A DNA stretch of 50,995 nt, taken from positions 1-50,995 of IMG/VR virus record IMGVR_UViG_3300010885_010496. One strand, given 5' to 3'. Each line of letters starts with the position of its first letter. Within the stretch, counting starts at the first letter, position 1. The notes beneath the pieces were generated by a model. It saw nothing but the letters and a program-made list of their open reading frames with translations. It was not told where the DNA came from and searched no databases. A program made the position numbers and the translations under genes. Positions 14,346-32,134 of the stretch are shown here, piece by piece. Origin of the DNA: a virus.

Positions 14346-14351
14346 GGTGAA

Positions 14352-14424
14352 TGCGCCCGGTTGGATTCGAACCAACGGCCTGAAGCTTAGAAGGCTCCTG
14401 ATCTATCCTCTGATCTACGGGCGC
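14352..14424 (-). tRNA. tRNA-Arg (UCU)
   Basis: On the minus strand the full cloverleaf is present: acceptor GCGCCCG/CGGGCGC, D arm GATC/GATC, anticodon stem GGAGC/GCTTC around loop CTTCTAA (anticodon TCT), variable AGGCC, and T arm GTTGG/CCAAC around TTCGAAT. The discriminator is A and CCA is not encoded. It reads AGA and AGG codons, rare in GC-rich hosts. It lies just after the primase-helicase stop and is probably co-transcribed with it. Confidence 0.95.
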
Positions 14425-14428
14425 ATAG

Positions 14429-14462
14429 GAGGCTGGCATTATGTGCCAGCCTCTTTTCTTTT
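14429..14462 (+). terminator. intrinsic terminator of the first early block
   Basis: GAGGCTGGCA and TGCCAGCCTC form a perfect 10-bp stem with loop TTATG, followed by TTTTCTTTT. It stops plus-strand transcription coming from the genes up to 14345. It overlaps the stop codon of the convergent primase-helicase by two bases. Confidence 0.85.
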
Positions 14463-16206
14463 ACAAATCGTCAAGCCAGCTATCATCGCCCGGAAGCGGC
14501 AAGCCCGGCTCACTGAACCCGCCGGTCGGCTTGTCATATGACAGCTCAACCTTGCCGGTCTTTCCTTGATGAGAGAAGCGGCATTTCCACACATGCAAGG
14601 ATGACATTCTTTCATTCCTGTGCATGGTTAAACCAAAATCAGCCCGGTTATACCAGTGGGCAGACCCACTGATGGAGTAACCCGTAGGTACCCAGTCACT
14701 ACCGGCGTTCATTGGCTTCGCCGGGTGAGCAATGATGAAGAGAACAACCTCACTGCGCTGGGCAAACATCTTAAACTTACTCAGCATTTCATTGATGGCT
14801 TCAGTGTCTACTCCGCCATCCTTCCCATTCAACTTGATGAAGTTAAACGGATCAACGACGCAAGCCTTAACACCATTGCGCCGCACCGCAGTCTCAAACC
14901 TTTCGATCAGGCTCTCGACCGTGGGCATGACGCCATCATGGGTGAGGAACGTGACATGCTCTTGCACCCAGGCCATGCCCTCGTCCAGCTCTGCGTTGTT
15001 CAGGCGGGGTGTTGGCCCATAGCCAAAGGGTTTGCCCTGCTTCAGAGCAATCAGTTTGGAGACGTGAATCTCTGGCGGATTCTCAAAGCTGGCATAAGCC
15101 ACCGACCAGTTGTGCTGCCGCATCGCATTGACCAGCATGGCATCGATGAACGTGGATTTGCCGTGACCAGGGATGCCAGTGACTACAACAAGATTGCCTG
15201 GGCAAAGTGTATACACATCGTCCACACTGGACCACCCAGTGGAATTGCCTGGGGGCAAACCATTCTGATACAAGTCCATGACCTTGGAATGGAAATCAAC
15301 AGGCTGAGCAACGCCTTCGATGGGCCAGGGCTGGGCGTTCTTGATCGTTGCCCTCAGTGCATCAGCGCCATGCTTAACGAGAACATCGTTCGCGTCTTTA
15401 GTTCCTGACGGGAACTCCACCTTGTAGCATTTGAGTTTGCCCAGGCGACGAGCCAGCTCTTGTGCTGTGATCTGACCGGGGTCATCCATATCGACAGCCA
15501 GATAAATCTCCTCGGCATTCGCAAGCAGATCATCGTGTGCGGCTATCCAGCGCAACCGGGCAGCATCATCAGCGGTGCCGCTGGCAATGGCTCCAGAGGG
15601 GATTGAAACGGCTTCTATGCCCGCTTCCCAATAGGACAGGGCGTCCATCTCACCTTCGGTGATCACCACTTTGGATTTATCTGTCAGCCTGTCGGCAAGA
15701 TAGAGCGTGACGGCAGAGCCTTCGGCGGTAAAGTCCTTAAAAAGCCCAATTGATCTCCACTTGGCAGCATAGGCATTGCCTTGATGCCCATAGATAAATC
15801 CCAAAGCTGAGCGTTCGCCACCTGCTTTTTTGAAGTAGCGAGCGGCAGAGACGACACCAAGTTTCTCTGCGGTGTCTTGTGAAATTCCTCTACCTTGAAG
15901 ATAAGTCAATGCCTCAACTGACAGGCTATCGCTTTCTATTTTTCTCATTGGCATGATTGCTGCCATAAGGCTCTCTCCTGTTTGGGGTTTTGGCCCGGTT
16001 GTTTTGCCCTTCTCTCCGCAATGCCAGCAATACCACACAACCGCGCCGTCAGGCGTAGTGTGGATGGATAGGCTGGGATCATTGCGCGTCTTCCGCGTCG
16101 GGCCGCACGCGGGGCAGGGCGCGCGCGTCTGCTGGCCTTTTGCTCTTGCCAAAACATATTCTGCATCGATGCCCATCAGAGATGGGTGGCACAAAAACGA
16201 TGACAA
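14461..16206 (-). CDS. bifunctional DNA primase-helicase (T7 gp4/Twinkle-like)
   Basis: The protein has up to 581 residues. A CHC2-like zinc finger is present (C31, C34, C60, C63 in CPACG and YCWHCG). The TOPRIM core has VVITEGEMDAL (E185, D188) and EIYLAVDMDDPG (D239-D242). The RecA-like helicase has Walker A GIPGHGKST (K350), a Walker B CVVDPF, and FIIAHPAKP as in gp4/DnaB motifs. It primes and unwinds DNA at the phage fork. The start is uncertain: TTG 16206 or ATG 16176, neither with a good ribosome site. It is on the minus strand inside the plus-strand block, with tRNA-Arg downstream. Confidence 0.9.
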   Translation of the reverse strand: MSSFLCHPSLMGIDAEYVLARAKGQQTRAPCPACGPTRKTRNDPSLSIHTTPDGAVVWYCWHCGEKGKTTGPKPQTGESLMAAIMPMRKIESDSLSVEALTYLQGRGISQDTAEKLGVVSAARYFKKAGGERSALGFIYGHQGNAYAAKWRSIGLFKDFTAEGSAVTLYLADRLTDKSKVVITEGEMDALSYWEAGIEAVSIPSGAIASGTADDAARLRWIAAHDDLLANAEEIYLAVDMDDPGQITAQELARRLGKLKCYKVEFPSGTKDANDVLVKHGADALRATIKNAQPWPIEGVAQPVDFHSKVMDLYQNGLPPGNSTGWSSVDDVYTLCPGNLVVVTGIPGHGKSTFIDAMLVNAMRQHNWSVAYASFENPPEIHVSKLIALKQGKPFGYGPTPRLNNAELDEGMAWVQEHVTFLTHDGVMPTVESLIERFETAVRRNGVKACVVDPFNFIKLNGKDGGVDTEAINEMLSKFKMFAQRSEVVLFIIAHPAKPMNAGSDWVPTGYSISGSAHWYNRADFGLTMHRNERMSSLHVWKCRFSHQGKTGKVELSYDKPTGGFSEPGLPLPGDDSWLDDL

Positions 16207-16282: not shown

Positions 16283-16888
16283 TTACTCCATGCCGTCTCT
16301 ATAAATTCTCGGACGCCTAAGATTTTCCACCGCAGGAATTGCCCTCAGATTCCAAGGAACATGAAGTCCACACACGACCCTTCCATTCAACGGTACGATA
16401 TGATCAACGTGATAGGTTACACCAGTCTCAATCGAAAGGCGTTGCGCTTCAGCATACACTGCGTTGATCTGGGAAATATGATCTGGCGTTAGCCATAGTG
16501 GCATGGCTTGCTTTTTTCTTGCGCGACGATTTGCTTTGTGACTGCGAACGAGATCTCGATTGGCGGCGCACCACAGGCTGTTAAATTCTGGATTACTAGC
16601 GTTCCATTTAGCCTTGTATTGCAGGACGCGCTCTCGATTAGCGGTGCCCCACTCTTTAACTTTCTTTTTTCTGACGTTTGAATTTTGAATATAACGAACG
16701 TGATTTTTTAGAATCACTGCTGCCGGGCAATCTTCTTTTTGACAATGGTTAGGTCCATACCGCTCTCGGTTTTTTATAATAAGCGGATCACCATACTTAA
16801 GAAACTTTTTGTAATGGGCGAGGCATAACCCGCGCGTCCTGACGGTCTTGCCGCACCCGGCAACCGAGCATATAAGAGAATCAGCCAT
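16283..16888 (-). CDS. HNH homing endonuclease, copy 1
   Basis: This is a 201-residue protein. The N-terminus has a small zinc motif (CSVAGCGKTVRTRGLCLAHY), the middle is basic, and the end has the HNH core: YHVDHIVPLNGRVVCGLHVPWNLRAIPAVENLRR (D-H, then N and H-like residues). It is closely related in length and sequence to the copy at 20387-20992. Free-standing HNH enzymes of this kind spread by cutting genomes lacking them. It lies upstream of the primase-helicase on the same strand. A hairpin related to that before copy 2 lies upstream of it. Confidence 0.9.
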   Translation of the reverse strand: MADSLICSVAGCGKTVRTRGLCLAHYKKFLKYGDPLIIKNRERYGPNHCQKEDCPAAVILKNHVRYIQNSNVRKKKVKEWGTANRERVLQYKAKWNASNPEFNSLWCAANRDLVRSHKANRRARKKQAMPLWLTPDHISQINAVYAEAQRLSIETGVTYHVDHIVPLNGRVVCGLHVPWNLRAIPAVENLRRPRIYRDGME

Positions 16889-16916
16889 TTAACTTTCTTA
16901 AGAAGTTGCTGGTCAG

Positions 16917-16959
16917 AAACCCAGGCATCGTTGGTCGCGGTGCTTGGGTTTTGTTTTTT
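16917..16959 (+). terminator. hairpin upstream of HNH copy 1; plus-strand terminator-like
   Basis: AAACCCA (16917-16923) pairs with TGGGTTT (16945-16951), with an inner GCA/TGC pair. On the plus strand it is followed by a T-rich tail ending in six Ts. A related structure precedes HNH copy 2 at 21022-21064. It may end plus-strand read-through, and on the minus strand it forms a leader hairpin for the HNH gene. Confidence 0.5.
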
Positions 16960-16972
16960 ACCATCTACCGAA

Positions 16973-16991
16973 TGTGATAGCAAGCATCACA
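16973..16991. promoter_or_regulatory. CRP-like inverted repeat
   Basis: TGTGAT and ATCACA are separated by seven bases (a perfect 6-base inverted repeat). The half-site matches the CRP/FNR family core TGTGA, but the spacing is longer than the usual CRP site. It lies upstream of HNH copy 1 on the minus strand. Confidence 0.35.
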
Positions 16992-17619
16992 AACATATAA
17001 CCTACCATCAATTAAGGGGGGCTTATTGCCCCCCCCCCTAATAAACACTGACCCATGTTTGACTGGGTTGAGCTGAGACTTGAACATGTTTCTCCCTCCG
17101 AAGAGGGAGGTAATGTTTGATCGGTACCGTCTATCGCATCGACCATCACATTCCTGCGTTGCACCCGTGTTAGCCCAGGCTACCCGACGAGGGGGGCATT
17201 GGTGCAGTTTCCGCCTTGCGGCGCGGCGCTCAATGGCTTGGCCACGCAGGCGACCAGCCATCTCCCCAGGGACGTTCGTTCCCTGCTTCTCAACCCAGCG
17301 AACCGGGCATCATTCTCCCATGCCCTTGGGTTCACATTGCCCGTCACGCTCCTTCTGGCGTTCCGGGATGTCCCGCATTGGGCGGGTGGCTATGAAGCTA
17401 CCCCTTGATTTTCACATGGAAGCGGGAGATAACCCTCGAAGGGATTCGTCCCACCCCTTGTTGCTGCAAGGGATCAGAGGGGATGGTCCGCCAAGACCAT
17501 CCCCTCACCCAACCTCCTCGCACATTACGAATCCGATAGCAACTCCCTTTTCAGGGCAGAGGGCACTTGCGCTCGGTGATAAATGCTGGCACAATCCGAC
17601 AGTCGAAAGGAACATCATA
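16992..17619 (+). ncRNA. candidate large structured RNA or structured leader
   Basis: There is no credible gene in this stretch; the plus frame open over 17080-17619 has Arg/Pro/Ser/His-rich shadow composition. It is dense in strong hairpins: 17016-17034 (GGGGGGC/GCCCCCC), 17092-17109 (CTCCCTC/GAGGGAG), a two-part helix 17292-17297/17327-17332 with inner 17305-17310/17320-17325, 17455-17472 (CCCTTG/CAAGGG) and 17477-17506 (12 perfect bp, GAGGGGATGGTC/GACCATCCCCTC). The final part holds a possible promoter (TTGCGC at 17567, CACAAT at 17590) and the ribosome site of the MazG-like gene. It may be a free ncRNA or a long leader; strand is inferred from the downstream gene. Confidence 0.5.
17567..17595 (+). 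promoter_or_regulatory. possible promoter before MazG-like gene
   Basis: TTGCGC at 17567-17572 is followed 17 bases later by CACAAT at 17590-17595. The match is partial, but the position, 25 bases before the start at 17620, and the need to restart transcription after the terminator at 16917-16959 make it plausible. Confidence 0.35.
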
Positions 17620-18006
17620 ATGAATCCGTTTAATGATCAAGCTAAATTCATGCGCGCTTGCGGGCAGAAGGTTGGCGAATGGGATGGCGAGCAGTTCGAT
17701 CTCTACCTCCGTCTGATCCGCGAGGAAGCCACAGAACTCCTTGACGCTGTTGCCCAAGACAACAAGGTTGAGATGTTCGATGCCATCCTCGACTTGATCG
17801 TTGTGTGTATTGGTGCTGGGCACTCGGCTGGTTTCCCCATGTCCGCTGGCTGGGAGACTGTGATCCGCTCCAACATGGCGAAGGTTGATCCTGAGACTGG
17901 CCGCGTTCGTCGCCGGGCGGATGGCAAGATCCTCAAGCCCGAAGGTTGGGAAGCGCCGCAAAAAGAACTTGCCCGCCTTATCCGCATCTCTGATTTCTTG
18001 GACTGA
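17620..18006 (+). CDS. MazG-like nucleotide pyrophosphohydrolase
   Basis: This is a 128-residue protein from ATG 17620 (AAAGGAAC upstream). An all-alpha NTP-pyrophosphatase pattern is visible: FDLYLRLIREEATELLDAV (EExxE-like E34-E35-x2-E38), then EMFDAILDLIVVCIG, which supplies the downstream acidic pair. The C-terminal segment SNMAKVDPETGRVRRRADGKILKPEGWEAP is typical of phage members that carry a K/N-rich substrate loop. MazG-like enzymes hydrolyse (d)NTPs or ppGpp and tune host metabolism during infection. The substrate cannot be told from sequence. Confidence 0.85.
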   Translation: MNPFNDQAKFMRACGQKVGEWDGEQFDLYLRLIREEATELLDAVAQDNKVEMFDAILDLIVVCIGAGHSAGFPMSAGWETVIRSNMAKVDPETGRVRRRADGKILKPEGWEAPQKELARLIRISDFLD

Positions 18007-26140: not shown

Positions 26141-26447
26141 GAAGATCGTATCCACCGAAGACATGACCCCAGAAGAGAGGGAGATGGGCGAAGAGTTCGC
26201 CTTGGTCGCCGTCAATTCTGCCATTGAGTTCGTTGGAGAGCGTGATATCGAGCCGTCCACAATGCTGGCAGCTCTTGGCTCCGCGTTCTGGACTTACCTG
26301 ATGTTTGTTTCTTCGCCACGCGCGGCGTCGTCAAACATCGACAACGCCATGAAGTTCATGACCAGCTCCGCTGAAGAAGCGCGGAGAAGGATTAAGGAAG
26401 TAGAGTGGGCCGAGAAGATGACCCATGGTCAAGAGGGCAACGCCTAA
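26133..26447 (+). CDS. unknown helical phage protein
   Basis: This is a 104-residue acidic, helical protein (EEREMGEEFALVAVNSAIEFVGERDIEP...SSAEEARRRIKEVEW). It is the last early gene; its stop overlaps by four bases the stop of the convergent giant virion gene. GGAGGAG is upstream. Not recognised. Confidence 0.7.
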   Translation: MTEKIVSTEDMTPEEREMGEEFALVAVNSAIEFVGERDIEPSTMLAALGSAFWTYLMFVSSPRAASSNIDNAMKFMTSSAEEARRRIKEVEWAEKMTHGQEGNA

Positions 26448-29400
26448 AGAACTCCCAATCTTACAGCCCTGTCAACAACACGCTTAGCTATCTGGTCGCG
26501 CTGAGTAATAAGCGGCTGGATAGCTGCGGCTTTTTCCACACTGCTCAACGCACCCTTCTCAATGCGCCTAATGTTTTGATTGATGTTGGCTATCTGAGTG
26601 CTGGCGGTATTGACGGCAGACCGCAGTTGCAAGGGCAATCCTGCTTCACCCCTAAGCTCTTGCAATCTATCGCGGTCATTGCTTCTTACGGCGTCGTTTC
26701 TGGAACGGACAAGCTGGTCCGTCATTTCCTTGACGCGGTAGAAATCACCAACAAACCGAGACGCAACTTGATCGTCGGTCCTATAGAAACGGTTCGCGCC
26801 CGTAAGCCCAGCGATGACGGCTGGCATGCTGAGCGGATCGCCAAACGCGCCAGCAGGTTTGCCTGGGATAAGGCCCATGCCAGCCAGCATGCTATCAAAC
26901 CCAGCAAGCACCGCTGTCCCAATGCTTCCTGAGTATCCTTCCATCAGAGCTTGGATTCTGATGGGGCTGATGCCCGCGTTCTCTCCAATCACTCTAGCCA
27001 CAGAGCTGGTGCTGCGGTTCATCCGCTCACCGGGAAGCTTTCCAAGATCGCTAGCGTTTTCCAATGGCTTGTTGCGAAAGAAGTCATAGTTCGTGGTCAC
27101 ACTTAAGATTGGAACAAGTGCTTGCGGAATGGGGTTGAAGAAGAACGTCGAGGTGCCGACGCTCGCCAGCATACCGGCCAAGTCTCTGCCGTCTTTTTTT
27201 ACTGCAGCATCCAACAGAAATACCGGAATGGCGCCAAAAACATTGCCAACTTCAAACGCGCGAGGGAACAGTATCCTGCGACCACCCGGCAAATAAAGAA
27301 TATCATATCCACGCTTCAGGTCAGGCGTTTCGTTGTTCCAGCGGTCAGGTTCATCGGCCATGTTCTTCGCAGCAAGAGCGAGAGAGGCAACCATAACCAC
27401 AAGGCCGCGCAAGAATATCTGCTTTGGTAGCGTTTTCAGAACGCGCTCATCGCCCTTTTCATTTTCAACAAGACGGTACATGCCCTGAATCTTAGCATTG
27501 AGGAATGGCACCAACGGAACCAGCCAGTTCACAGTCGATCCAACCCAGCCACCACCCATGCCGCGACGGGAGAACGGAGCCAGGAGATAAGCTTGATATG
27601 CCGCCTCCTTATCCGTCATGCCCTTCTCCTTCATGCGCTCGTAGAGCTTAATGCGCTCGGCCATTTCAGTGGCTTCGCTGATCTTCTGAAGCCCTCCCAT
27701 GGCGCGGCGCAGCATACCGCTAGGGCCGTAGCCAAGCCCTTGGATTTGACGCTCTAGCGCCTTGGCCACATCACGCTCGCCCATGCCGTAGGTGTAGCCA
27801 CCGAAACCAGTCTGGGCAGCAATAGCCTTGTAAGAGGCGCTAGCCTGCAACGCCTGCTTCAAGCCGCCAAAGGTGTTTGTGTAAAAGGGAAGCCCCTCTT
27901 GCACATACGCCATGGTCTTGCCGCGCCATAGGTTTGCTATCATGAAGCTAGGCGCTGCGGTAATCATGTCACGGAAGAAGCCAGCAAACTGAGACATAGT
28001 CTTGTAGATACCGTTTGAAAATTCCCGAGGCGCTCCAGCCAATGTGGCGTAGAGAACTGTGTCATCAACCTCAAAGTTTTTATCCTGACCATTCACTCTG
28101 TATGTGATGGTCTTGCCTGCTTCACGATCCTTAACCGGACGACCAAGGCCCACCGCCTCCATGGTTTCCGCAGCCTGCTGCATGGCAACATTCTTCATGC
28201 CAGCTTTCATAATCACGTCTGCGTTGCGGAGCATGTTCTCAAAGAGATCGCCTAGCGGGTTCACGCCGCCCTTGAGCTTCACATCAAAGGCGGTCTTCAC
28301 ATTGGTCAGGCTCTCAGAGAGCTTAGGCCCAACGACAGAACCGGCGTTGTTCTCATTCTTCGCGTCCTCCTCAGCCTTCCGATAGAAGGGTGTGTAGAAC
28401 ATGCTGGCAAGCTGATCGGCTTTGCCTCTGTCCAACGTGCCGGTGTTGACAGCGAAGTCCAGCAGCGCCTTGTTGATGCGCTGGATGTCGGCGGCCATCT
28501 TTTTCCACTCGGGATGAGCAGCTTCAGCCTTGGAGATGATGGAGTTCACCTCCGCGTCAGTCAGGTTGAAGAAGCCTTTCTTGCCATTGCGGCGAAGGTC
28601 TTGTTCACGAAGGGCAACAAGATAGCTCTGCGCCTCCTTCTTGTCCTGGACATTGAGTCTGCCTTTGATTGCATCGATCAAACCGGGCACATCTTCCCGA
28701 ATGGAAACATCGCCAGTCCTTGGGTCATAAGCCAGAGGGCCATGTTCCATATACATTTGAACGCGACCGCTGTTGTTGAGCGCCACCTCCATAGCCAAGC
28801 CTGCGCTCTTGAGCGAAAGACCTCTTTCCTTTGCCAGCCGGTCAAGCATCCAGAGTGGAGCCGCACGGTTGATTGTGGTGCGGACTAACGCACTAGACAG
28901 CTTCTCGCCGGGCAACGCTCCGACAAAGCGGCGCATACCATCCGAGAAAACATTCGGCTTATCCAGCTCTTTGCCCGTAATTTTTTCGGCAGCACTCTGA
29001 TAGGCTTGATCTTCGGACAGTGGCGAGCGTGCTGAAGCTTCCGTTTCAGCGGATGAAAAATCTTGTCCGGTCGGCGTGGCGCGATCATTGAAGCGGGTAG
29101 CATCACCCTTCGCCACACGACCAAGCACATCCTCAACGGTCTGGAAGCCATCCCCGCGCAGCTTGTTTCCCATGCGGTCAAAGAACTGGCGCATCGCATT
29201 CACGAAGCGAGTAAAGGCGGGCTTCATTCCCGACATAGGAACGCCGCGCTTGGACGCATCCATGAGGGCACCAAAGGCGTAAGCCTGCGCCTCCCTGGCG
29301 GTCATCTTATTCTTAATGCTGCTAGTCAAAACATCCCAATAGCTCTTGTTGAGATTTGGGAAACGCGCCTGCTCCAGCTTGCGACGGATTGTCGGATCGA

Positions 29401-32134
29401 CATCAGATATCTTCATGTCGTCGCGGAAGCCTTGGCTCATAAGCTTCGCGAACTGCGGATCATACTTGCCGTAGTAATCCTGAAGAACATGGAATGCTTC
29501 ATGCGCTGCCGTTTCGCGCAAGAAGGGGAGCTGGTTCTCGGTAAGTGAAAGCTGAATTAGGCCTAGTATGCCCGGCTGGTTGGGGCGGGTACGAAGACCT
29601 TGAACCTTTTGCCCAGCAACGCCGCCGCTCTTTTCAATTGTTTCGTCGGATGCCAGCAACTCACGGGCAAACAGAACCTGATGATCGGCAGTGGCGGGAA
29701 GGATTTGGGACATCACCTCCGCAGCCACGAACGCGGCATACACCTGTTCGGCGCTGAGTGTCCGGTCCTTAAGCGCATTAACCAGAGCATTGCGAAGCAG
29801 CCTGCCCTGCTTGCCCTTGGCTTTCAGCTTGTCGAGGTAGATGGCATTGATGCGGTTCTGCGCCGCAATACGCCGCCCAGCGCGGGCATCACTTTCAGTG
29901 GGCTGAGACTCTGGTTGAGCCTGTTCGCCACCCACCTCGCGGGCAGAAGCTTCCGGCCCTTGGCGGTCCACCATTCTGCGAGGCTCAAGGGTTTGCCCTT
30001 CAGCATCAACGGCGCGTCCTGCCTTTTGGCCAGCTACATCCTCTGGACCAACTAAAGCAGAAGCAACCTCTTGCGTCATGCGTGCGCTCTCACGCACTGG
30101 CATTTGCACAAGCTGATCCATGGTCGTCTCAACCGGGACTTCTTGAGTGAAGTCTCCAACCTGACGGCGGACATAAGCCAGCACGTTGCCGAAGTTGTCG
30201 GAGGGGAGGATTTCCACCACCTCCTCGCCATTCAAAAGATACCGCTGATCAGTGATCTGAGGAGCGCCTGCGCGGGCATCATCCTGCTGGGCAGGGAGAG
30301 TGTCAGGACTGCCAGAGCCTGATGGGATTTCAATACCAGCAGCCTGACGCTGCCGATCCATCCGCTCACGACGAGCCTGGGCAACATCAAACGCAGGACC
30401 AGCGTTCTCCAACATGTTCTGACGCGCGGTGTTCTCGCGCTCATAGGTCGGAATGGAGTTAGCAATCTGGCGACGGACAGCCTCACGCCCCGCGATAAGC
30501 TGATCAAGCTGGGCAATCTCAGCCTGCACTGCCTCAAGGGCTACGGCATCAACTATGGGTGCAGCTTCAATTGCCTTAAGGCGGCCCTCTGCGTTTTGAC
30601 GAGCCACAACAAGCTGTTGAACTTGCTGCTCTGCCGCCGCAAGATCGCGCTGCAACTCCAGCTCAGAGACGGGCTTGCGCCCCATGCGCCGCTGTATCTC
30701 AGCATCACGAAACGCCTCTTGGGTTTCAGGGCTGTTAGCCATCTCGCGCCGGATGTTGCCCTCTTCAACGCCTTGGCGAGAGGCGACGTTGCCTTGTTGA
30801 TTCTCCCGAAGAATATCAAGGAACGTATTGACGCGGTCATTGTCGGTTTGCGCGTAAGCCATGCGAGATGCAATCTCGGGATTATCCCGGATCATATCTG
30901 GCAGGCTGCGCTCCATGAACCGCTCAAGCTGGGAACGAGAAAGGTTCCCGGCTGGCGTTTCGATGCTAGGCATCTCGCGCGGCAAAAGGTTTTGCCCAGT
31001 ATCCATAGGTTCGCGGTTGGCAACGTAGTCGTTGACAGCCTGACGCAGTTCTGAAGGTAGGCTATCCTGATTAAGGCCGGTCGGAGGAGGGCCGCCACGC
31101 AGGGCAGCAAAGCCAGCGCCAGCGCCAGCACCAAGCGCAGCGCCGGTTGCGGCAGAAGACCCAACACCCTGGCTTAGATCACGCTCAGCATCGGCCCTAC
31201 GCGCACCTACGTTCTGAGCAAAGCGGCCACCACCTTCTTCAATTGCTTCCTGACCGCCTTCGAAGATTGCCCCGCCAAGAATGCGGCTCAGAGCTGCCTG
31301 CTGGGCACGCTGGGCAAACGCCATGCGTTCAACGCCAGGAAGAAGAGCGGCTGACGCGGCGGACAACGGTGCCGCAATGGCAGATGCCTCACGCGCCGCT
31401 TGGGTGGCAAGAGCAACACGCGCCTCCTGATCCGTCATGGTGCGACGGAGTTCTTGATAAGCGGGGCTGCGCTCAATGACCTCTGAGGTCAGGGTCATAA
31501 CATCTTGGTAGGTGGAGTTTGCTACCTCGCCGGTCTGAAGGCCGGTGCTGGTGCCAATCGCCGCGCCTGTTGCGCCACGCCGCGCCGCTTGTTCTGCTGC
31601 CTCTGCGCCCGCACGACGCGCAGCAACCTGTCCAACCGCACTACCGACCCGACCAACACCAAGAGACGCGGCAAGCTGCGGAATCTGCTCAACGGCCATA
31701 GAGCCAAAGAGATATGGGTCTGAGGCAAGACCGCTGACAGCCTCAACCGCCTGCGTTCCAAGCCCCTGGTTTTGAACCGCCTGAAGACGCCGCTCAAACT
31801 CCTCTTGCCTCTGACGAAGGCCGGGCGACATGATGTCCCGGCCAACGTCCTGAACATATTTACCAATCCTGGTTGCAGGGTTGTTGAAGTTGCCAGTGGC
31901 AAGCCCGTAGATGCCACCAGCGGCAGTGCCTAGGCCGCCGACGCCAGATACCAAAGCGCCCGGCACATCGCGCAAAATGTTGGTCGGTTGACGCTCAGGT
32001 TCTGCCGCCGGGGCGGGCGCGGCAGACTGCGCGTTCGGCAAGATATCAAACTCAATGGCGCGAATGATATCGCGGTCAGACATTCCTTCTGGGAACCGGA
32101 CTTTGCCAACCCCGGGGACATCAATGATGCTCAT
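26444..32134 (-). CDS. giant internal virion / DNA ejection protein with zincin motif
   Basis: This is a 1896-residue protein. The N-terminus MSIIDVPGVGKVRFPEGMSD resembles the start motif of podovirus ejection proteins. Glycine-rich amphipathic stretches (about 60-95 and 325-345), a coiled coil (about 490-590), a zinc-metallopeptidase-like motif HEAFH (H878-H882), a large helical region, and hydrophobic spans near the end (FFRDMITAAPSFMIANLW, WLVPLVPFLNAKIQGMY, GLVVMVASLALAAKN) suggest a protein stored in the capsid and ejected to form a channel through the envelope. It is the last gene of the late block. The ejection role is inferred from size, order and composition. Confidence 0.75.
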   Translation of the reverse strand: MSIIDVPGVGKVRFPEGMSDRDIIRAIEFDILPNAQSAAPAPAAEPERQPTNILRDVPGALVSGVGGLGTAAGGIYGLATGNFNNPATRIGKYVQDVGRDIMSPGLRQRQEEFERRLQAVQNQGLGTQAVEAVSGLASDPYLFGSMAVEQIPQLAASLGVGRVGSAVGQVAARRAGAEAAEQAARRGATGAAIGTSTGLQTGEVANSTYQDVMTLTSEVIERSPAYQELRRTMTDQEARVALATQAAREASAIAAPLSAASAALLPGVERMAFAQRAQQAALSRILGGAIFEGGQEAIEEGGGRFAQNVGARRADAERDLSQGVGSSAATGAALGAGAGAGFAALRGGPPPTGLNQDSLPSELRQAVNDYVANREPMDTGQNLLPREMPSIETPAGNLSRSQLERFMERSLPDMIRDNPEIASRMAYAQTDNDRVNTFLDILRENQQGNVASRQGVEEGNIRREMANSPETQEAFRDAEIQRRMGRKPVSELELQRDLAAAEQQVQQLVVARQNAEGRLKAIEAAPIVDAVALEAVQAEIAQLDQLIAGREAVRRQIANSIPTYERENTARQNMLENAGPAFDVAQARRERMDRQRQAAGIEIPSGSGSPDTLPAQQDDARAGAPQITDQRYLLNGEEVVEILPSDNFGNVLAYVRRQVGDFTQEVPVETTMDQLVQMPVRESARMTQEVASALVGPEDVAGQKAGRAVDAEGQTLEPRRMVDRQGPEASAREVGGEQAQPESQPTESDARAGRRIAAQNRINAIYLDKLKAKGKQGRLLRNALVNALKDRTLSAEQVYAAFVAAEVMSQILPATADHQVLFARELLASDETIEKSGGVAGQKVQGLRTRPNQPGILGLIQLSLTENQLPFLRETAAHEAFHVLQDYYGKYDPQFAKLMSQGFRDDMKISDVDPTIRRKLEQARFPNLNKSYWDVLTSSIKNKMTAREAQAYAFGALMDASKRGVPMSGMKPAFTRFVNAMRQFFDRMGNKLRGDGFQTVEDVLGRVAKGDATRFNDRATPTGQDFSSAETEASARSPLSEDQAYQSAAEKITGKELDKPNVFSDGMRRFVGALPGEKLSSALVRTTINRAAPLWMLDRLAKERGLSLKSAGLAMEVALNNSGRVQMYMEHGPLAYDPRTGDVSIREDVPGLIDAIKGRLNVQDKKEAQSYLVALREQDLRRNGKKGFFNLTDAEVNSIISKAEAAHPEWKKMAADIQRINKALLDFAVNTGTLDRGKADQLASMFYTPFYRKAEEDAKNENNAGSVVGPKLSESLTNVKTAFDVKLKGGVNPLGDLFENMLRNADVIMKAGMKNVAMQQAAETMEAVGLGRPVKDREAGKTITYRVNGQDKNFEVDDTVLYATLAGAPREFSNGIYKTMSQFAGFFRDMITAAPSFMIANLWRGKTMAYVQEGLPFYTNTFGGLKQALQASASYKAIAAQTGFGGYTYGMGERDVAKALERQIQGLGYGPSGMLRRAMGGLQKISEATEMAERIKLYERMKEKGMTDKEAAYQAYLLAPFSRRGMGGGWVGSTVNWLVPLVPFLNAKIQGMYRLVENEKGDERVLKTLPKQIFLRGLVVMVASLALAAKNMADEPDRWNNETPDLKRGYDILYLPGGRRILFPRAFEVGNVFGAIPVFLLDAAVKKDGRDLAGMLASVGTSTFFFNPIPQALVPILSVTTNYDFFRNKPLENASDLGKLPGERMNRSTSSVARVIGENAGISPIRIQALMEGYSGSIGTAVLAGFDSMLAGMGLIPGKPAGAFGDPLSMPAVIAGLTGANRFYRTDDQVASRFVGDFYRVKEMTDQLVRSRNDAVRSNDRDRLQELRGEAGLPLQLRSAVNTASTQIANINQNIRRIEKGALSSVEKAAAIQPLITQRDQIAKRVVDRAVRLGVL

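Follow-up and report, generated by a model that had tools for sequence, protein, structure and literature searches.

What might a virus keep in a stretch of DNA that lies between two genes, holds no gene of its own, and is packed with hairpins? This is the question raised by positions 16964-17619 of the IMG/VR virus record studied here (the window, which is the complete record of 50,995 bases). A first-pass annotation had described the stretch as hairpin dense and non-coding and proposed a large structured RNA. We find that roughly 460 non-coding bases between the two genes are probably a new large viral RNA outside the catalogued families. To our knowledge, the large structured RNAs known from phages are very few, and the role of none is settled. 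An additional family, for which homologues, two natural 5' alleles, and a 3'-domain covariance model are available, is a test case for what such RNAs do.

Homologues and covariation point to a structured RNA

The stretch folds beyond dinucleotide shuffles on both strands (20 shuffles each), with -250.2 kcal/mol against -220.1 +/- 7.1 on the plus strand (z -4.26) and -277.2 kcal/mol on the minus strand (z -5.53), and the stems that the annotation listed are present in the sequence.

Scans with the MazG protein, the helicase protein, and DNA patterns yielded seven distinct regions, including the window. Type A comprises the window, L032, L033, and L034 (equal to L035, L036, and L049 over the compared part); type B comprises L003, L004, and L037 (equal to L051). 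A profile of either type detects the other only in the last 110 to 120 bases, with E values down to 1.6e-15: the 3' domain is common, and the 5' domain comes in two alternative forms (Table 1). We built a covariance model, R1, from the seven 3' domains and ran it over whole records, which revealed three previously unseen members, L083, L084, and L085 (E ~1e-13 to 3e-12). With the type A nhmmer profile, L083 matches almost end to end (E 2.5e-67); L084 and L085 match the type B 3' half (E 2e-12 to 4e-11). This makes 10 distinct members from few lineages. The RNA would be ~460 nt long, and the homologue spans used are 444-512 nt.

The distribution beyond these members is narrow. The R1 model gave no match in two bacterial genomes of ~3 Mb each, and the named phages and plasmids searched hold no similar DNA except for short chance matches; the best named-phage matches of the helicase, in phages of cyanobacteria, reach at most 39% identity. 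Pattern matches outside the family (L044, L047, and L055-L082) were set aside as chance, most of them lying within genes. Nothing was found in searched records that carry a related helicase or MazG protein, such as L030, L031, L039, and L017 (several of these records are fragments), and the lack of a match alongside related helicases, e.g., in L030 and L031, is consistent with an accessory module. Between L003 and L004, identity is 97-98% in the RNA core but mostly 75-90% in the helicase and MazG genes on either side. Such conservation looks like the reverse of a drifting spacer, and recent exchange could give the same pattern.

Covariation among homologues, which the annotation had named as the test for a large structured RNA, was found. 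For type A, eight helices occupy the same columns in an alignment of four homologues made from sequence alone; 98.9% of the cells pair, and double-sided changes occur at 17 of 45 pairs, compared with 6.1 after shuffling and 1-5 after sliding. Type B shows such changes at 10 pairs, compared with 4.0 after shuffling, and also exceeds its slid controls; for both types, the helices were picked on the same sequences before counting, which makes L083 the fairer check. Only three cells break in L083, which otherwise keeps the pairs of the seven 5'-domain helices and adds new compensatory combinations. Three of the stems first listed, 17092-17109, 17455-17472, and 17477-17506 (12 perfect bp), are kept in homologues with compensatory changes. 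The nested stem 17292-17332 is present in the sequence, but homologues favor a smaller hairpin at 17317-17330. The hairpin at 17016-17034 also exists, but it falls outside the conserved part, in the space that separates the RNA from the HNH unit. Altogether, we have high confidence that the predicted RNA exists.

Could the stretch encode a protein instead, in the 17080 frame or on the minus strand at 16965-17261? Open frames do exist there, but they shift between homologues: the window, L032, and L033 each read the motif CATGCCCTTGG in a different frame. A stop codon lies inside the matching L033 frame, and none of the small frames tested has a Pfam or PHROG match. The 17080 frame is not conserved; the similar ends in the window and L032 (GGYE..P*) were considered and rejected, as the upstream motif changes frame. 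We give a protein gene almost no credence, and the description of the stretch as non-coding holds.

Table 1. Predicted features of the RNA locus and its neighbors (window coordinates)
Feature	Position	Strand	Basis or remark
tRNA-Arg, anticodon TCT	14351-14425	-	ARAGORN; sole tRNA match in window
Primase-helicase gene	14461-16206	-	Upstream side of stretch
HNH gene copy	16283-16888	-	Beside primase-helicase gene
Conserved structured RNA, type A, whole	17047..17510	+	Type A nhmmer profile, covariation; 5' end approximate, 3' end = terminator hairpin
5' domain, allele type A	17047..17402	+	Aligned in window, L032, L033, L034, L083; type B instead in L003, L004, L037
Long-range closing helix, 5' strand GUUGAG	17067..17072, pairs with 17404-17409	+	RNAalifold on A5
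Hairpin A2	17083..17117: 17083-17087/17113-17117 and 17092-17098/17103-17109	+	Double-sided changes at 5/5 and 6/7 pairs, four homologues, hand-matched arms
Multibranch arm	17154..17249, closed by 17154-17159/17244-17249	+	Whole arm: 9 pairs with double-sided changes at identical columns; kept in L083, one exception
Helices inside multibranch arm	17160-17165/17201-17206, 17173-17176/17194-17197, 17212-17215/17220-17223	+	Part of the arm above
Hairpin CCCA-UGCCCU-UGGG, conserved loop	17317..17330	+	Type A alignment, L083
Helix CCCG/CGGG (CCUG/CAGG in other type A)	17340..17367	+	Compensatory U-A to C-G
Hairpin CCCGC-AUUGG-GCGGG	17372..17386	+	Compensatory A-U to G-C
Hairpin GGUGGCU-AUGA-AGCUACC	17385..17402	+	AUGA loop conserved in 4/5 type A members
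3' domain shared by both types	17403..17510	+	A-to-B cross-matches; covariance model R1
Invariant TTGA (17405-17408) and ATA (17429-17431)	17405..17431	+	10/10 members; hexamer spacing 17-18 nt; sigma-70-like score in first seven
Hairpin hp1, GGGA-UUCG-UCCC	17441..17452	+	39/39 pairs Watson-Crick, ten members; compensatory change at 2/4
Hairpin P5, variable loop	17453..17474	+	69/70 pairs Watson-Crick, ten members; compensatory change at 4/7
Hairpin P6, intrinsic-terminator-like, 12 bp	17477..17506	+	Covariation, conserved in homologues
Promoter-like TTGCGC-17-CACAAT ahead of MazG, downstream of RNA	17566..17594, approximate	+	Same site scores in L003, L004
MazG-like gene	17620-18006	+	Downstream of stretch

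The 3' domain sets the strand

Which strand would be transcribed? Full-length counts of G-U and A-C pairs give no preference. The 3' domain is more telling: among the first seven members, its non-Watson-Crick pairs in the plus sense are 12 G-U and 2 A-C, and the stem of P6 has G-U pairs in the plus sense only. A U-run follows P6 in L032, L033, L034, L037, and L083-L085, and is absent in the window. Together, the terminator hairpin with its U-runs and the G-U excess place the RNA on the plus strand. As plus-strand RNA, the 3' domain folds with z down to -7.4, and the plus sense is the stabler one in five of the seven members, four of them clearly. Ten-member pair counts were used for hp1 and P5, leaving out the totals and the P6 rows of L083-L085, whose arms were offset by one base. 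Parts of the domain have two mutually exclusive pairings, either a long arm or hp1 with P5. The 5' domain alone has a modest folding signal (z ~0 to -4.4), and its non-Watson-Crick pairs are balanced (7 G-U and 6 A-C), so that its strand comes only from continuity with the 3' domain. The last two hairpins of the 5' domain share two bases, which makes the outer pairs of the later one optional.

A minus-strand leader of the helicase operon was also considered, because a start codon abuts the type B RNAs; it was rejected, as the terminator and the G-U pairs point to the plus strand and the helicase lies on either side.

The same evidence bears on whether the conserved unit works as DNA, as a replication origin or a single-strand hairpin site by the primase-helicase gene. 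It adjoins a replication gene, mismatches in its 5' domain have no strand bias, and the terminator loop occurs in both orientations, all of which would suit a DNA element. An intrinsic terminator with a U-run and a G-U bias in the 3' domain would not, however, and the helicase gene is found on either strand relative to the RNA. The site is also G+C-rich, a repeat search gave no iteron array, and the cumulative GC skew has no extreme there, for which reason an origin called by skew was rejected. We consider a DNA-level element improbable.

As to the loop of P6 (17489-17494), it and its counterparts in homologous hairpins read CGCCAA or CGGCAA in some cases and UUGGCG or UUGCCG in others, which looks like repeated inversion of the loop within the arms that flank it.

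One RNA or two?

The invariant TTGA and ATA, at promoter-like spacing, raise the possibility of a short RNA from inside the locus. TTGA-N17/18-ATA may be a candidate internal promoter for a ~72-nt RNA, or else an RNA motif, and the short RNA may be made alone or alongside the long one. Under the two-unit explanation, an upstream structured element would be followed by a separate small RNA (~17439-17510) whose loops act on a target. This would fit the first 37 columns of the 3' domain, where hardly any column is invariant apart from TTGA, ATA, and the A that precedes hp1. It would also fit hp1 and P5, perfect in almost all ten members, and the P5 loop, which differs at all five positions between the otherwise near-identical L084 and L085. 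However, pairs that span the supposed start (the P3 arm and the closing helix) show compensatory changes by RNAalifold, no P5-loop target with corresponding changes turned up where the L084 and L085 genomes align, and a loop-spacer pseudoknot falls short of significance across the family (p 0.07). Two units are possible, at a probability well short of even.

The single RNA that we prefer would be held together by the closing helix, which would join its two domains in a single molecule. Support for this helix is weaker because its core hardly varies, so that flanking pairs carry it; these co-vary, read by eye, from CCAUG:CAUGG in the window to GUUUG:CAAAC in L083.

In detail, five of five consecutive P5 loop positions differ between L084 (4075-4079, approximate) and L085, whose RNAs have 13 other differences over ~440 positions. 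The upstream spacer differs as well, at two sites, and in each RNA it keeps its complementarity to that RNA's own loop.

Varied neighbors argue against a leader

The first-pass annotation placed the stretch near a tRNA gene and a mobile endonuclease. The tRNA-Arg gene is in fact 2.6 kb from the RNA, past the helicase gene, and the HNH gene adjoins the RNA in the window only. The latter encodes a 201-aa endonuclease-VII-like protein and is a separate mobile copy, with no counterpart seen beside the other members. The mobile HNH unit seems to span ~16283-16969, directly next to the RNA 5' end.

Two observations concern these neighbors. Window positions 16903-16969, upstream of the HNH gene, share 81-82% identity with flanks of two HNH-like copies in L004 (8789-8852 and 2695-2748). 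L003 and L004 likewise have a tRNA gene close to where the helicase gene ends.

In the window, L003, and L004, the next gene downstream is MazG, in the same orientation as the RNA, which would suit a leader or attenuator acting in cis on that operon. However, MazG has a leader of its own (17511-17619) past the terminator, with a conserved promoter-like site, and in L033 and L037 the downstream gene, RusA-like, is on the opposite strand. In L083-L085, the RNA is followed in the same orientation by a metallophosphoesterase gene and, after it, the helicase gene. Since neighbor genes and their strands vary among members, the RNA is not the leader of one gene, and we regard a cis-acting element as very improbable. 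With no fixed neighbor gene, the locus is best read as a structured RNA acting in trans, and we are fairly confident that the predicted RNA does so as a free-standing folded transcript.

Comparison with known RNA classes

It is tempting to assign the RNA to one of the large ornate classes, and GOLLD and ROOL had been suggested as examples. Rfam 15 gave no convincing match, at relaxed and gathering thresholds in the window, L033, and L037 and at gathering thresholds in L003, L004, and L032. Relaxed searches yielded unrelated sub-threshold matches that differ from homologue to homologue, and a known family was rejected on this ground. The claim that the RNA fits no known class therefore stands, and an identity with GOLLD or ROOL does not. 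Nor was there a match to an Rfam intron model that would indicate a self-splicing intron, or an ARAGORN match to a tmRNA or tRNA in the RNA region. The open-licence papers searched hold no description of this RNA.

GOLLD is likewise phage-borne, large, and rich in stems, and the window RNA has a tRNA gene in its wider neighborhood. The 3' region of GOLLD is universally conserved and its 5' region less so (PMC12286853), as is the case here, although this is a general feature and no proof of membership. GOLLD is often >800 nt, compared with ~460 nt for this RNA, whose common 3' part is only ~110 nt; the RNA has no Rfam covariance match. ROOL is also a large structured RNA of phages and prophages, with no Rfam match here either; its domains are intertwined, unlike the modular 5'/3' divergence of this family (PMC12286853). 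HEARO/OMEGA RNAs share with the window RNA a place beside an HNH gene, but Rfam again gave no match and the HNH gene is an endonuclease-VII-like mobile copy that is not seen beside the other members. Its protein matches endonuclease VII/HNH PHROGs only, so IscB/IsrB is not indicated. ColE1 RNA I and CopA-type antisense RNAs are short hairpin units, relevant by analogy only. The three-hairpin 3' unit resembles them in ending in a terminator, having a variable loop, and lying beside replication genes, but no opposed long transcript or replication target is shown here. The best reading is that the RNA is analogous to GOLLD and ROOL and not a member of either.

A possible role, and two exchangeable alleles

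Overall, the explanation that we favor, with somewhat better than even confidence, is a ~460-nt plus-strand non-coding RNA with its own intrinsic terminator and a trans-acting fold, perhaps serving in scaffolding or self-assembly. The structured RNA would be made during infection. Its 3' domain would form the shared core, and the exchangeable 5' domain would carry the part that differs, i.e., a binding partner or an assembly surface. By analogy with large ornate phage RNAs, a scaffold or assembly mechanism is the likeliest, and we propose it tentatively. The family is a test case for the generality of multimer assembly, as in GOLLD and ROOL.

The L033 (type A) and L037 (type B) phages are 89-97% identical around the locus, and they still match as far as the point where the 3' domain begins (88.8% over L033:5168-5528). 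Judged from such comparisons, alleles A and B are exchanged between related phages. The RNA might then be an exchangeable specificity module, in which the alleles and the variable P5 loop would set the partner RNA or protein that is recognized, e.g., for control of the phage's own replication or exclusion of sibling phages. We consider this role unlikely.

At the type B 5' end, we observed a divergent small gene with the motif FWQ-Q-FGPAS-VR-IDP (L004:5149-5382, minus strand; L037:5650-5901, plus; L084:3248-3667, minus; L085:3288-3692, minus). Three of these genes were tested and had no Pfam match, and none was found beside the L003 RNA. Its product is a possible partner protein of the type B RNA.

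Two further features of these genomes lie outside the RNA locus. L003:1642-2127 holds long low-complexity repeats that are open in several frames on both strands, with a comparable stretch at L083:6120-6563. On the minus strand of the window, positions 26444-32134 encode a protein of 1896 aa that has an LPD38 domain and resembles the N-terminal portion of a PHROG for virion RNA polymerase.
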